The notes below the pieces were generated by a model. It was not told the DNA's origin. It ran no database searches and was given only the letters and a program-made list of their open reading frames with translations. The translations under genes were made by a program, and so were the position numbers. 64,000 bases of DNA from Xanthomonas indica (GTDB taxonomy: Bacteria > Pseudomonadota > Gammaproteobacteria > Xanthomonadales > Xanthomonadaceae), in contig NZ_CP131914.1 in the NCBI RefSeq assembly GCF_040529045.1, positions 4,076,501 to 4,140,500 of the forward strand, written 5' to 3'. Below are positions 19,381-26,209 of this stretch, one piece after another. The first letter of the stretch is position 1, and every line of letters begins with the position of its first letter.

Positions 19381-21774
19381 ATGAACCGTCCGTTGTCGCT
19401 GCTGGCGAGCGCCGTGCTCGCCGCCCTCGCCACTCCCTCCGTCTCCGCCCAGACCGCCCCCGAGGCGTCCAGCACGCCCAGCACGCTGGACACAGTGATC
19501 GTCACCGGCACCCGCGTCAGCGACCGCACCGTCGCCGAGTCGCAATCGCCGATCGACATCATCACCCCCGAGGCGCTGCAGGCCACCGGCACCTCGGAAC
19601 TGGCCACCGCGCTGTCGCGCGCGCTGCCCTCGCTGAACTTCCCGCGCCCGGCCCTGACCGACGGCACCAGCGGCATCCGCCCGGCGCAGTTGCGCGGGCT
19701 CTCGCCCGACCAGGTGCTGGTGCTGGTTAACGGCAAGCGCCGCCACACCTCGGCGATGATCAACGTCAACGGCACCATCGGCCGCGGTTCCTCGGCAGTG
19801 GATCTCAACGCGATCCCGATCGCCGCGATCGAGCGGGTAGAAGTGCTGCGCGACGGCGCCTCGGCGCAGTACGGCTCCGACGCCATCGCCGGCGTGGTCA
19901 ACATCGTACTCAAGGGCGCCGGCGAAGGCGGCAGCCTGGCGGTGGAGCACGGCCAGTACTCGGCCGGCGACGGCGCCAAGTCGCAGCTCTCCGGCGATGC
20001 CGGGGTCGGCTTCGGCGATGGCCGCGGCAGCCTGCACGTGGCCGGGCAGATCAGCCAGCAGGACGCCACCAATCGCGCCGGTCCGTACCAGGGCACCGCG
20101 CCGAACACCGGCAACTATCCCGGCATCGGCCAGACCACCTTCGTCTACGGCGATCCCAAGGTCGACGCCACCGCGGTCTCGGCCAACGGCGAGTTCCGCT
20201 TCAGCGACCACCTCACCGGCTATGCCACCGCGATCGCCAGCAACCGCGACATCACCTCGTTCGCGTTCTACCGCTCGCGCAACCACAACGGCCAGACCGC
20301 GCTGCTGGCGCAGGTCTACCCGGACGGCTACGTGCCGCAGATCGAGCAGTACTCCAAGGACCGCTCGCTGCTCGCCGGCCTGAAGGGCAGCACCGCCGGC
20401 GGCTTCGCCTGGGACATCAGCTACAACTACGGCTACAACAAGGTCGATTTCCACACCGCCAACAGCATCAACTACAGCCTCGGCGCGGACAGCCCGCGGC
20501 GCTTCTACGACGGCGCGCTGGAGTACACCCAGAACGCGATCAACGCCGACTTCACCCAGCCGCTGGAGTGGGGCCTGGCCTATCCGGTGACGCTGTCCTT
20601 CGGCGCCGAGTACCGCCAGGAGAAGTGGAACCAGTCGCCGGGCGAGCCGGCCTCGTACACCGGCACCACCGGCGGTGCGCAGGGCTTTGCCGGTTTCGCG
20701 CCGCTCAACGCGGTGCATTCGGACCGCCACAACTACGCGGTGTACGCGGGGCTGGAAGCCGACCTCACCGACAAGTTCTCCGCCGGCCTCACCGGCCGCT
20801 ACGAGGACTACTCGGACTTCGGCAGCAAGACCTCCGGCAAGCTGTCGGCGCGCTATGCCTTCACCGACAAGGTGGCGCTGCGCGGCACCGTCGCCAGCGG
20901 CTTCCGCGCGCCGTCGCTGGCGCAGCAGCAGTACCAGGCGGTGACCAGCAGCTACATCAACGGCAGCTTCTTCGAATCCGGCACCTTCCCGGTGAACAGC
21001 GCCGTGGCCCAGGCGCTGGGCGCCGCGCCGCTGAAGGCCGAGACCTCGCTGTCCTACAGCCTGGGCCTGGTGCTGCAGCCGGTCGAGCGCCTGTACCTGA
21101 CCGTGGACGCGTACCAGATCGAGATCGACGACCGCATCCTGCTGTCGTCCAACCTCAACGACGCGGCGGTGCTGGCCAAGCTGCGCCAGCTCGGCTACAG
21201 CAACGTCACCAGCGTGCGCTACTTCAGCAACGCCGCCGACACCCGCACCCGCGGCGTCGACGTGGTCGGCACCTACAGCATCCCGTTCGCGGCCAGCACG
21301 CTGGACCTCACCGCCAGCTACGGCTACAGCAAGACCGATATCACCCATGCGGTGACCCAGCCGCAGGCGCTGGCCGCCATCGGCTCGACCCAGACCACGC
21401 TGGGCCGCGACGAGATCGGCCGCCTGGAAGACAGCTATCCGAAGGACAAGCTGATCCTCAGCGGCACCTGGAAGCTGCCGAAGTGGGACCTTAGCCTGGC
21501 CGCCACCCGCTACGGCGAATTCACCGTGCGCAATTCGGCCACCGCCGCGCGCGACCAGACCTACGGCGCGGATTGGGTGGTCGACGCCTCGGCCAGCTTC
21601 AAGCCGAGCACCAACTGGACGCTGACGCTGGGCGCGGACAACGTGTTCGACCAGTACCCGGACAAGACCGCCAACCTGATCAACTCGACCTACGGCATGC
21701 TCCCGTACAGCAACTACTCGCCGTACGGCTTCAACGGCGCCTACGTGTACGGGCGGATCAATTACCGCTGGTGA
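19381..21774 (+). CDS. TonB-dependent receptor, tandem copy 2
   Basis: A 797-residue outer-membrane receptor with a signal peptide (1-22, ATPSVSAQ), the VIVTGTRVSDRTVAESQSPI segment shared with copies 1 and 3, a plug with RGLSPDQVLVLVNGKRRHTS and YGSDAIAGVVNIVLK, and a barrel ending GRINYRW. It is closer to copy 3 than to copy 1 over the plug. CTGGAG lies shortly before the ATG, as it does, at varying distance, before the other two tandem copies. A strong terminator follows. The ligand is unknown; the barrel differs enough between copies that substrates may differ. Confidence 0.93.
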   Translation: MNRPLSLLASAVLAALATPSVSAQTAPEASSTPSTLDTVIVTGTRVSDRTVAESQSPIDIITPEALQATGTSELATALSRALPSLNFPRPALTDGTSGIRPAQLRGLSPDQVLVLVNGKRRHTSAMINVNGTIGRGSSAVDLNAIPIAAIERVEVLRDGASAQYGSDAIAGVVNIVLKGAGEGGSLAVEHGQYSAGDGAKSQLSGDAGVGFGDGRGSLHVAGQISQQDATNRAGPYQGTAPNTGNYPGIGQTTFVYGDPKVDATAVSANGEFRFSDHLTGYATAIASNRDITSFAFYRSRNHNGQTALLAQVYPDGYVPQIEQYSKDRSLLAGLKGSTAGGFAWDISYNYGYNKVDFHTANSINYSLGADSPRRFYDGALEYTQNAINADFTQPLEWGLAYPVTLSFGAEYRQEKWNQSPGEPASYTGTTGGAQGFAGFAPLNAVHSDRHNYAVYAGLEADLTDKFSAGLTGRYEDYSDFGSKTSGKLSARYAFTDKVALRGTVASGFRAPSLAQQQYQAVTSSYINGSFFESGTFPVNSAVAQALGAAPLKAETSLSYSLGLVLQPVERLYLTVDAYQIEIDDRILLSSNLNDAAVLAKLRQLGYSNVTSVRYFSNAADTRTRGVDVVGTYSIPFAASTLDLTASYGYSKTDITHAVTQPQALAAIGSTQTTLGRDEIGRLEDSYPKDKLILSGTWKLPKWDLSLAATRYGEFTVRNSATAARDQTYGADWVVDASASFKPSTNWTLTLGADNVFDQYPDKTANLINSTYGMLPYSNYSPYGFNGAYVYGRINYRW

Positions 21775-21855: not shown

Positions 21856-21904
21856 GGGGATTGGGGATTGGGGATTCGGGATTCGGGATTCGGGATTCGG
21901 GATC
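21856..21904. repeat. Seven perfect heptamers (GGGATTn family)
   Basis: The array is three GGGGATT, three CGGGATT and one CGGGATC in exact register (49 bp), beginning just after the terminator's T-run. Only one orientation is present here. Confidence 0.9.
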
Positions 21905-21946
21905 GGCAATTTATCGGTTGCGACGTGTTCGCCTGCCTAGGTTTTT

Positions 21947-22174: not shown

Positions 22175-22199
22175 GGCCTGGCCTGGCCTGGCCTGGCCT
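22175..22199. repeat. Pentanucleotide tandem repeat (GGCCT)5
   Basis: Five exact GGCCT units in non-coding DNA next to the IS110 element. The unit could vary in copy number between strains. Confidence 0.8.
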
Positions 22200-22237
22200 G
22201 CGCAGCGTACGCCCGTGACACCCGTAGGAGTCAACTG

Positions 22238-23161
22238 TCATGCAGCCGCGATGGCAGGAGGGGCATACGCTGCCTGATCACGCGCAATCGCGTTGAGCCA
22301 GCGCAGGAACTTGTGCATGCAGGCGACGATGGCGACCTTGGCTGGTTTGCCGGCCGCACGCAGGCGGGCATAGGTCTTGGCCAAGGGGGATTTGGCGCGG
22401 ATGCTGGCCCAGGTGGCCATGTACAGCACGCGTCGGATCTCGGCCCGTCCGCCTTTGATGCGACGCTGGCCCTGCCAGCGGCCGCTGTCGCGATTGAACG
22501 GGGCTAGCCCGACCAGAGCAGCGAGCTTGCGCGGCGGTAACGTGCCCAGTTCCGGCAGCCGTGCGGCCAGGACCGCGCGCAGGATCGCGCCAAGTCCGGG
22601 CACCTTCGGCAGGGTGGAGCAGGTCGTAGCCTGCTGCTCGATCTGCCGCGTCAACGCCTGGATCTTCTGGTTCAGTAGGGCGATCACCTCTTGGCAGTGG
22701 CCTTGCACCTCGGGGCTGGTGATGTGCTCCAGCCGCCGCCGATGGGCATCACGCTGGCCGACCAGAGTGTCGCGTAGGTCCAGCAATTCGCGCAGGGACT
22801 GAAGATGCTCGGGTAGTACGGCTGTGGGTGTGGCCGGGATGTGCTGGGCGGCGATGGCCAACAGGCGCGCGTCCAGGGCGTCGGTCTTGGCGTGCAGGCC
22901 AAGGGCCTTGGCCAGGTCCCGCGGACGATCGGCGGCCACCCTTGCCGCGGGCAGGTCCGCCTCCCGAAGGACTCGCAGCAGGGCATGTTCATAGCCACCA
23001 CTGGCTTCCAGCACGATCCGCTCGCAGTCCAGCCCCGTCAGGCGCTGGGCCAGCGCACGCCGCTCCTGTGCGGTATTCGGCTGGGTCCAGGTGTGGCCCT
23101 CCGGCAGGACATGAATGACCAGTTCGGCCTTGGCAACATCGATCCCGACAAAGCGTCGCAT
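22238..23161 (-). CDS. IS110-family transposase (DEDD recombinase)
   Basis: A 307-residue bridge-RNA-type recombinase. The N-terminal RuvC-like domain shows the DEDD residues Asp8 (FVGIDVAK), Glu52 (LEASGGYE), Asp94 and Asp97 (KTDALDA). A helical/coiled linker (about 115-180) joins the C-terminal Tnp domain, with VPGLG at 188-192 and the catalytic serine candidate Ser226 in NRDSGRWQG. The start at 23161 (MRRFVGID) leaves the upstream region non-coding, as expected. The gene appears intact, so the element may be active. The TGA stop overlaps the sequence of the element's right end. Confidence 0.95.
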   Translation of the reverse strand: MRRFVGIDVAKAELVIHVLPEGHTWTQPNTAQERRALAQRLTGLDCERIVLEASGGYEHALLRVLREADLPAARVAADRPRDLAKALGLHAKTDALDARLLAIAAQHIPATPTAVLPEHLQSLRELLDLRDTLVGQRDAHRRRLEHITSPEVQGHCQEVIALLNQKIQALTRQIEQQATTCSTLPKVPGLGAILRAVLAARLPELGTLPPRKLAALVGLAPFNRDSGRWQGQRRIKGGRAEIRRVLYMATWASIRAKSPLAKTYARLRAAGKPAKVAIVACMHKFLRWLNAIARDQAAYAPPAIAAA

Positions 23162-23186
23162 AGACGTTCTCCGCAGTAGACTCAGG

Positions 23187-23349
23187 GGTGAGAGCACTCC
23201 TGCCGATGCCCATGCTTGTGGAGTTCGAGTTCGCGACTCGGGCAACTGTTCGGGCTTGTGAGGCAGGAGTACGGAGTGCGGCGGCGCTGACTCCTACTCG
23301 TGCTTGCTTGGCACTGCGGCTAAACGGCCTGCCGCACTCCGCTCTCACC
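23187..23349 (-). ncRNA. Predicted bridge RNA of the IS110 element
   Basis: In the non-coding left end, perfect complements form a closing stem (23187-23195 with 23341-23349, 9 bp) enclosing two arms. RNA 5' arm: stem 23272-23282/23331-23341 (11 bp; base 23341 can serve only one stem), inner stem 23300-23303/23311-23314. Its internal loop holds CTCCTAC (23291-23297; RNA GUAGGAG) and GCGGCT (23316-23321; RNA AGCCGC), which match the two sides of the REP target. RNA 3' arm: stem 23196-23204/23262-23270 (9 bp), inner stem 23226-23230/23236-23240. Its loop holds RNA ACAGUUG (23243-23249) and CACAAG (within 23214-23220), matching the two element ends. Bridge RNAs guide IS110 recombinases by such target and donor loops. 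Exact ends and transcription are inferred. Confidence 0.82.
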
Positions 23350-23376
23350 TATAACGATAGACCCTCATAAGACACA

Positions 23377-23393
23377 AGCGGCTTCAGCCGCGA
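23377..23393 (+). repeat. Right half of the REP repeat split by the IS110 element
   Basis: AGCGGCTTCAGCCGCGA follows the element directly. The missing left half, GTAGGAG, is at 22224-22230. Confidence 0.9.
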
Positions 23394-23824
23394 CGCTTCA
23401 TCTATAGCGCGTCGAAGCGGGCGATGTTGCTGGAACGACCAGCCATGCGCTGGCGCCCCCCATGGCAACGCCGCCGCGGTCAATCCACAGGATGACGCCC
23501 GCGGCCATGTAGCCCGCACCTCACAGCTGCGCAACCCGCAGCGTCACGCAGGATGCGCACGCGATCCCGCGCAGGCACGGCGCAGGCACCGCGCCGTCGC
23601 GCGTGCCCGGCCATTTTGTCTACAACCCCGGCAAATCCGCGGATCCACGCTGCCGCAATGCCTGCAGCGGTGGTTGCAACTGCAACCTCCACCTCGCGCT
23701 TAACGGAACATTGACACTGCTGACATCCGTCGGTAATCCCTAAGTGGCGTCGCCGCATCCGCCAGGGGACAAGGGGAGCGCGCGTGCAGCGACGCACTCC
23801 CCCACTACTGGAGCCGCCTCCCTC
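23394..23824. other. Upstream region of TBDR copy 3, no gene seen
   Basis: This 430-bp stretch has no convincing reading frame. The A+T-richer part at about 23690-23745 (TTAACGGAACATTGACACTGC region) is the likely promoter. No dyad like those before copies 1 and 2 was found. Confidence 0.45.

Positions 23825-26209
<2,385 letters not shown>

Follow-up and report, generated by a model that had tools for sequence, protein, structure and literature searches.

An IS110-group element between two halves of a REP repeat

We analysed a stretch of 64,000 nucleotides from Xanthomonas indica (contig NZ_CP131914.1, positions 4,076,501 to 4,140,500 of the forward strand), referred to below as the window. 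Its minus strand carries an IS110-group element at 22231..23376 (CT cores excluded), the ends of which were set by comparing the flanks of the four copies in this genome and of 51 further copies of the lineage. The sole gene of the element, at 22238..23161 (minus strand, ATG at 23161), encodes a recombinase of 307 aa that starts with MRRFVGIDVAKAE, and a ribosome-site-like CGGAG was seen in the sequence at 23169..23173 (minus strand). The recombinase matched PF01548 (3.4e-17) and PF02371 (1.7e-16) in Pfam, both above the cut-offs, corresponding to the DEDD RuvC-like and Tnp domains, and phmmer matched it to IS621 (8wt6) and ISCro4 (9t56) with an E value of 9.7e-18 each. The IS621 residues D11, E60, D102, D105 and S241 were all conserved in the alignment with 8wt6, in which the corresponding segments of the window protein are GID, LEASG, KTDALDAR and DSG; the roles of these four acidic residues and the serine in IS621 have been described (PMC11208158).

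The element has a long left end, with 215 bases upstream of the start codon, and a short right end, with 7 bases past the stop codon, a TGA that doubles as part of the donor-left sequence. On the minus strand, it is flanked by two halves of a REP-like repeat. Comparison of the flanks of the own copies placed the core CT (AG on the plus strand) at 23377..23378 for the left end and at 22229..22230 for the right end, both in minus-strand sense. Beyond these cores, flank comparison placed the left target side, the REP arm GTCGCGGCTGAAGCCG, at 23379..23394, and the right target side, CCTAC, at 22224..22228 (minus strand, given in recombinase sense). In the same sense, the left junction of flank, core and element reads GAAGCCG-CT-TGTGTC and the right junction of element, core and flank reads GACAGTTGA-CT-CCTACGGG. 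Judged by its sequence, the element belongs to a known kind, the IS110-group insertion sequences with a bridge RNA. It lies between two adjacent long genes (19381-21774 and 23744-26209) of the same orientation and similar sequence, which by eye are TonB-dependent receptor-like. Short tandem repeats were also noticed by eye near its right flank, at 21858-21906 (GGGATTC-type heptamers) and 22182-22204 (GGCCT units), and an 85% relative is present on the X. sacchari R1 plasmid.

Guide segments and fold of the predicted bridge RNA

The bridge RNA region spans 23187..23354 (minus strand). Consensus folds, and the match to the Rfam family sX15 on the plus strand, predict an RNA running from about 23347 to 23187, composed of a closing stem, a target arm and a donor arm. 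By guide alignment and fold, the left target guide AGCCGC, which includes the first core base, was placed at 23316..23321, and the right target guide GUAGGAG, predicted to pair with the core CT plus CCTAC, at 23291..23297. By fold and donor comparison, the left donor guide ACAGUUG was placed at 23243..23249 and the right donor guide CACAAG, predicted to pair with the core CT plus TGTG, at 23215..23220 (all on the minus strand). The left target guide thus matches the target over five bases plus one core base. An extra CACAAG was seen upstream of the left donor guide, at 23260-23255 (minus strand). These four segments had been proposed in a sequence-only reading of the window, and they stand at the places claimed, on the minus strand and in the order AGCCGC, GTAGGAG, ACAGTTG and CACAAG. 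That reading had also likened the order of the target loop and then the donor loop, as well as the strand sense, to those of IS621; both agree with the description in PMC11208160, in which each loop base-pairs to the bottom strand through its 5' side and to the top strand through its 3' side.

When the 197-nt region was shuffled 3,000 times (dinucleotide type), single matches appeared in 619 shuffles for AGCCGC, 65 for GTAGGAG, 40 for ACAGTTG and 254 for CACAAG, while the ordered set of all four segments appeared in none (0/3,000). The earlier statement that the four matches are unlikely by chance therefore holds for the ordered set, but two of them, AGCCGC and CACAAG, are weak when taken alone.

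Consensus folds were obtained for 19 window- and sister-type RNAs and for 35 sX15-type RNAs, and both showed an end-to-end closing stem and two arms with large internal loops. Two-sided changes were found at 8 of 54 pairs in the window/sister type and at 22 of 51 pairs in the sX15 type, with broken cells amounting to 27/1,020 and 100/1,758, respectively. The proposal that all four guides lie in internal loops is only partly supported: each guide is in part base-paired in the consensus fold, with some pairing between the left and right target guides, and such guide pairing may exist in the free RNA before DNA binding. A separate 5' hairpin of the IS621 kind was absent from both consensus folds, in which the 5' and 3' ends pair as the closing stem; for this reason, the bridge RNA was not placed in the IS621-type structural class.

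Insertion at the Xanthomonas REP

The genome of the window contains four copies of the element (E up to 0.001), all of which cut the REP at one and the same base and in the same orientation. All four give the empty site GAAGCCG-CT-CCTAC and the joined ends ACAGTTGA-CT-TGTGTC. The uninterrupted sequence GGCTGAAGCCGCTCCTAC occurs 328 times in this genome (166 forward and 162 reverse), while the reversed control occurs 0 times. A recombinase match was detected in 14 of 20 genomes of the genus, a distant lineage being counted. Sixty copies were parsed at both ends, comprising 55 of the window lineage (nine genomes, the four own copies included) and five of a sister lineage (G018); L129 (no right end) and L131 (decayed) were left out of the genus set, and recombinase fragments of G004, G008 and G019 were unparsed.

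The CT core and clean junctions were present in all 60 of these lineage and sister sites. Positions ‒5, ‒2, ‒1, the CT core, +1, +2, +4 and +5 were invariant (60/60), positions ‒4 and +3 differed in one site each, and position ‒3 was C in 54 sites and T in six. Conservation drops from +6 outward, and the upstream REP arm is moderately conserved. When the 12-base block (five bases on the left, CT and five on the right) was compared with the guide of the same element, 46 of the 60 sites matched perfectly, 13 showed one G-U-type change (L102, L113, four in G017, L123, L124 and the five of G018), and one, L116 with CCCAC, showed one other mismatch. The check suggested in the sequence-only reading, that insertion sites of near-identical or related elements should match the loop segments, thus gave 60 of 60 sites within one mismatch of the guides and none without a match. 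The elements L074, L076 and L115 were inserted in REPs that are diverged or interrupted outside the guide-matched stretch. The further claim of the sequence-only reading, that the specificity for Xanthomonas REPs can be read from the guides, stands for a guide-matched stretch of about 12 bp but not for the whole REP. REP copies in which an insert of ~20 bases replaces the loop were seen in G011 and G005 (L074 and L129), and these are still targeted.

Variant guides and a second lineage within the genus

The left target guide carries U (AAGUCG) in G003, G017, G014 and G015, at the place where the window has C. A U in the guide is also able to pair with the G that stands opposite C. In G003 (guide AAGUCGC), the free REPs comprise eight of the GTCG type versus 225 of the GCCG type, and three of four strict REP insertions were in the GTCG type, compared with 8/233 free copies (Fisher p = 2.9e-4); GTCG was found in five of six when all insertions were counted. 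For the pooled U-guide genomes, the ratio of GTCG to GCCG was 4 to 6 among inserted and 46 to 1,183 among free REPs (p = 4.1e-4). G017, with a U guide like that of G003, showed no significant preference for GTCG (p = 0.22). In the C-guide genomes, the same ratio was 0 to 32 among inserted and 17 to 1,262 among free REPs, a comparison with little power to show avoidance because GTCG REPs are rare.

On the donor side, the left donor guide ACAGUUG hardly varies (ACGGUUG in G384), and the same holds for the donor itself. Elements with the donor CT-TGT have the right donor guide ACAAG, and most of those with CT-TAT have AUAAG, the exceptions being G384, one copy of G359 and G205.

A distant IS110 lineage of the genus, with 26-31% amino acid identity to the window recombinase, cuts the same REP 3 bp away, at GCCGCTC-CT-ACR, and its joined ends read ACGGTAT-CT-TGTATC. 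In L132-L138, from seven genomes, the left target guide CGCUCC and the donor guides ACGGUAU and ACAAG were found in 7/7, and the right target guide was UGUAG in three elements at CT-ACA and CGUAG in four at CT-ACG.

Guide–target covariation across the family

The sX15-type relatives are mostly inserted at targets other than the window REP. Among these targets, GAGC-CT-ACANGG, AAGC-CT-CCANGG and GAGC-CT-CCATGG lie in terminator-like repeats (labelled by eye); GTGGAT-CT-ACT, TCCGCT-CT-ACR and TCGGCT-CT-ACC belong to three palindromic repeats; CAACCC-CT-CTCCCG belongs to a CCCTCACCCC repeat; and AGATCC-CT belongs to another repeat. The target CTAACRC-CT-GARTTAAGCC (one GAACTAAGCC) is attC-like: it resembles one side of an integron attC, with GTTAG further out in the right flank of several elements, by comparison with the attC consensus. 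The elements at attC-like sites are L243-L245, L251-L253, L259, L269, L272, L273, L275, L276 and L278.

Guides were read by one anchored rule, with two left-guide offsets allowed, in shuffled pairs too; right flanks off the contig, flanks with N in the tested bases and the right end of L238 (not an element end) were omitted from the permutation. The mean fit of guides to their own versus other targets was 5.99 versus 3.60 of 7 on the left and 7.04 versus 4.01 of 8 on the right, and none of 100,000 permutations reached the own-target fit (26 left and 22 right guide classes), although the permutations overstate independence because the guide classes are related. The sX15 type alone (20 left and 16 right classes) likewise gave 0/100,000, while the left guides of the window-type lineage alone gave a weak result, 3,322/100,000 permutations reaching the fit. 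In a tree of 32 proteins, the target changes ACA/CCA and GAATTA/GAGTTA each occurred at two separate positions, with the guide base changed to match, and the recombinases flanking these changes are 84-91% identical. As exceptions, six of 56 sX15-type right sides mismatched the guide within CT plus three bases, among them L199 and L211, which have ACA guides at CCA sites, and the left guide of L274 fits only 4/7. In G330 (L209-L212), the recombinase match was split near residue 147 with an intact bridge RNA, as if the element were mobilised in trans or the break were read through.

For G218 and G279, the own right flanks of which are cut off by contig ends, the right target sides were predicted from the guide. 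The right guide of G218 reads CT-CGCTGG; ACAGTTGCTCGCTG was found at four places (reversed-pattern control 0), and all four show a right end, then CGCTGCGC, and then a differing flank. Repeat copies in the left flanks of the G218 loci had hinted at the same sequence. The right guide of G279 reads CT-CTCCCG, which was found at 13 places (reversed control 0), and the six inspected were all right ends; this prediction was made with prior knowledge, CTCCCG having already been seen in G239, which shares the right guide. The expectation of the earlier reading, that changed loops should go with changed targets, is thus supported by the G003 preference, the family permutations and the predicted sides found for G218 and G279.

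sX15 and promoter-like motifs

The Rfam scan of the window returned one notable hit, sX15 (RF02234), on the plus strand opposite the bridge RNA, with 42.5 bits over the full 159-position model. This score is lower than the gathering score of 55, and the window copy is therefore regarded as a diverged sX15 homologue on the antisense strand rather than a formal member. The original report of sX15 is reportedly that of Schmidtke et al. in 2012. Within Xanthomonadaceae, sX15 was found in 90 of 395 genomes at E up to 0.01 and in 70 of 395 over the gathering score. We fetched 80 sX15 regions, a part of the matches listed, of which four are without a parsed left end (L260, L266, L267 and L271). An IS110 recombinase, whole or in part, lay on the strand opposite sX15 in 78 of the 80 fetched regions; tblastn with 12 query proteins, 11 of them drawn from the same 80 regions, left L241 and L274 without a recombinase match. 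Where the first residue was aligned, the recombinase starts about 25-30 bases beyond the end of the bridge RNA, with the exception of L260 (contig end). Five relatives searched against all of Rfam at gathering scores matched sX15 only, with 117.9-183.6 bits, each antisense to the recombinase. By homology, sX15 (RF02234) is the antisense strand of these predicted bridge RNAs.

A ‒10-like TAGACT lies at 23177..23182 (plus strand), just upstream of the sX15-equivalent start and beside the ribosome site. In 40 of 47 distinct leaders, a raw count with no chance control, a regular-expression search found TANNNT just ahead of the antisense 5' end; two of the seven misses (G018) carry TAGACT outside the range of the expression, and the other five are rows with decay, truncation or wrong orientation. 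The sigma70 scan gave no convincing ‒35 on the antisense strand. On the minus strand, the ‒10-like TATCGT at 23354..23359 is promoter-like only in the joined circle junction, where the TTGA of the right end plus CT gives TTGACT-17-TATCGT, with 9/12 consensus bases; this arrangement occurs in 11 of 13 distinct window-lineage junctions (no chance control). In most sX15-type elements, a good junction promoter was not found by sigma70 scan, the scores being mostly 6-7 (no chance control).

In ISPpu9, the experimentally mapped antisense RNA Asr9 covers the transposase leader, is driven by a promoter located within the first eight codons, the ‒10 of which overlaps the ribosome site, and is reported to raise transposase translation and transposition (PMC8450116). 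In view of this geometry, sX15 looks like the Xanthomonadaceae counterpart of Asr9, a putative antisense to the bridge RNA, and the ‒10-like motif beside the recombinase ribosome site, which mirrors that of Asr9, suggests antisense control of bridge RNAs. The available text of PMC11208160 cites PMC8450116 only for small RNAs thought to modulate recombinase expression. ISPpu9 also has a sense small RNA, Ssr9, partly complementary to Asr9 and with stand-alone copies (PMC8450116), which may be a free-standing relative of a bridge RNA.

Proposed mechanism and alternatives

Taken together, we consider it highly probable that the locus carries an IS110-group element with a bridge RNA guiding insertion into the REP. 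The recombinase would use the left-end bridge RNA, one loop of which would pair with the Xanthomonas REP (AGCCG-CT-CCTAC) and the other with the joined ends of the element (ACAGTTGA-CT-TGTG), and strand exchange would occur at the CT core. When the element is excised as a circle, a sigma70-like promoter would arise over the junction (TTGACT-17-TATCGT) and drive the bridge RNA, and relatives would have evolved other target loops, inserting at other multicopy palindromic repeats or attC-like sites. The sX15-type transcript, probably a true antisense, would act on the bridge RNA or the recombinase leader, in the way Asr9 acts on that of ISPpu9. Of these steps, transcription, RNA–protein binding, catalysis, promoter use and antisense function are inferred.

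Observed directly are the ends and the core, the correspondence of guides with target and donor, their covariation, the target sides that were predicted and then found, and the identity of sX15 together with its strand in the Rfam model. Selection of REPs by the recombinase protein or by the shape of the REP hairpin, with the RNA matches incidental, draws some support from the many targets that are palindromic repeats and from a proposal of 2006 that some transposases recognise palindromic REPs in the way that regulators find their own sites (PMC1525189). We regard it as very unlikely and set protein-only recognition aside, since guide and target co-vary even between recombinases that are 84-91% identical, G003 favours the rare REP variant matching its variant guide, the target sides predicted from guides were found, and this REP is also cut, 3 bp away, by a second lineage in which the guides are shifted. 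Chance matches, aided by GC-rich sequence and abundant REPs, could be argued from AGCCGC and CACAAG, each present in 8-21% of shuffles, but the ordered four did not arise in 3,000 shuffles, the covariation was not reached in 100,000 permutations, and the predicted sides were found; short of an error in the guide positions of all classes, the covariation already refutes chance, which was set aside with next to no weight. An IS1111-type seekRNA element, which would share the recombinase superfamily and have relatives at attC and REP sites (PMC11187229), is equally improbable and was rejected: the RNA lies upstream of the recombinase in the left end, the guide order is that of IS110, and the 7 bases after the stop codon leave no room for a guide RNA in the right end.

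The strand of sX15 is the less settled part. It is possible, though we think it unlikely, that sX15 is the bridge RNA itself, entered on the wrong strand in Rfam, and not an antisense RNA, given that hairpin RNAs look alike on both strands and that a convincing antisense ‒35 was not found. Against this, the model reports the antisense strand only, in the window and the five relatives, TANNNT precedes the antisense 5' end in 40 of 47 distinct leaders, and Asr9, of similar geometry, was mapped experimentally (PMC8450116). We therefore favour an antisense transcript, and tentatively, with slightly less than even confidence, extend this to a broader proposal: sX15 would be a genuine antisense RNA from a conserved promoter beside the ribosome site, pairing with the whole bridge RNA including its four guides, and, together with Asr9, would make antisense RNA a general control layer of RNA-guided IS110 recombination, setting which role the left-end transcript takes, guide RNA or leader of the recombinase mRNA. 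As the complement of the guides, such an antisense would automatically keep pace with each of their natural reprogrammings.

Significance and comparison with known systems

Earlier publications already describe the guide–target concordance of IS110 elements, the insertion of IS621 at REP and of IS1111 elements at attC, and natural redirection (PMC11208160, PMC11187229, PMC1525189). In the literature searched, no link of sX15 to IS110 or to bridge RNA was found among the matches listed, in which IS110, bridge RNA and Xanthomonas co-occur in one paper; nor were IS110-group elements at attC-like sites found, the named attC-targeting elements being of the IS1111 type. One paper has sX15 as a single entry in a table of hits, and another mention, in work on onion endophytes, looks unrelated. 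Two parts would be unexpected to a specialist: the assignment of sX15 and the presence of IS110-group elements at attC-like sites. In this clade, two short RNA loops reveal the landing site accurately enough for flanks to be located from a guide, and the natural guide–target series, with its repeated single-position changes and the target changes that match them, is a ready data set on bridge RNA reprogramming in nature and on tolerated mismatches or G-U pairs. The Rfam family sX15 gains an assignment, the antisense strand of bridge RNAs, and the control of IS110 transposases by small RNAs, the puzzle posed by Asr9, becomes testable as control of the guide itself.

Compared with E. coli IS621, the window element is alike in its DEDD plus serine recombinase, CT core, REP target and predicted left-end RNA, in the order of target and then donor loop, in strand sense, and in a predicted promoter formed at the circle junction (PMC11208160). 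It is unlike IS621 in its distant recombinase (E 9.7e-18), its closing stem in place of the separate 5' hairpin, its Xanthomonas REP target and the sX15 homologue on the opposite strand; in addition, the left guide match is five bases plus one core base, compared with the 8-9 reported for IS621. ISPpu9 of Pseudomonas putida is likewise an IS110-family element in REPs, with a 244-nt leader and the leader-complementary antisense small RNA Asr9, which was published before bridge RNA as an activator of transposase translation (PMC8450116). In the window element, by homology, the antisense strand extends over the predicted bridge RNA guides. RF02234 itself corresponds to the antisense of the bridge-RNA region in both the window and its relatives, at 42.5 bits in the former versus up to 183.6 in the latter. 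Guided insertion at integron attC is known from the IS1111-type ISKpn4 and ISPst6, as in the relatives at attC-like sites described here, but unlike these two, our attC-like-site elements have an IS110-type anatomy with a left-end RNA and a short right end. Finally, the natural redirection seen here resembles that of ISEc11 and ISXne4, in which related recombinases with differing guides have matching targets (PMC11187229), whereas in our case many guide classes occur within one bacterial family, with repeated changes at single positions.
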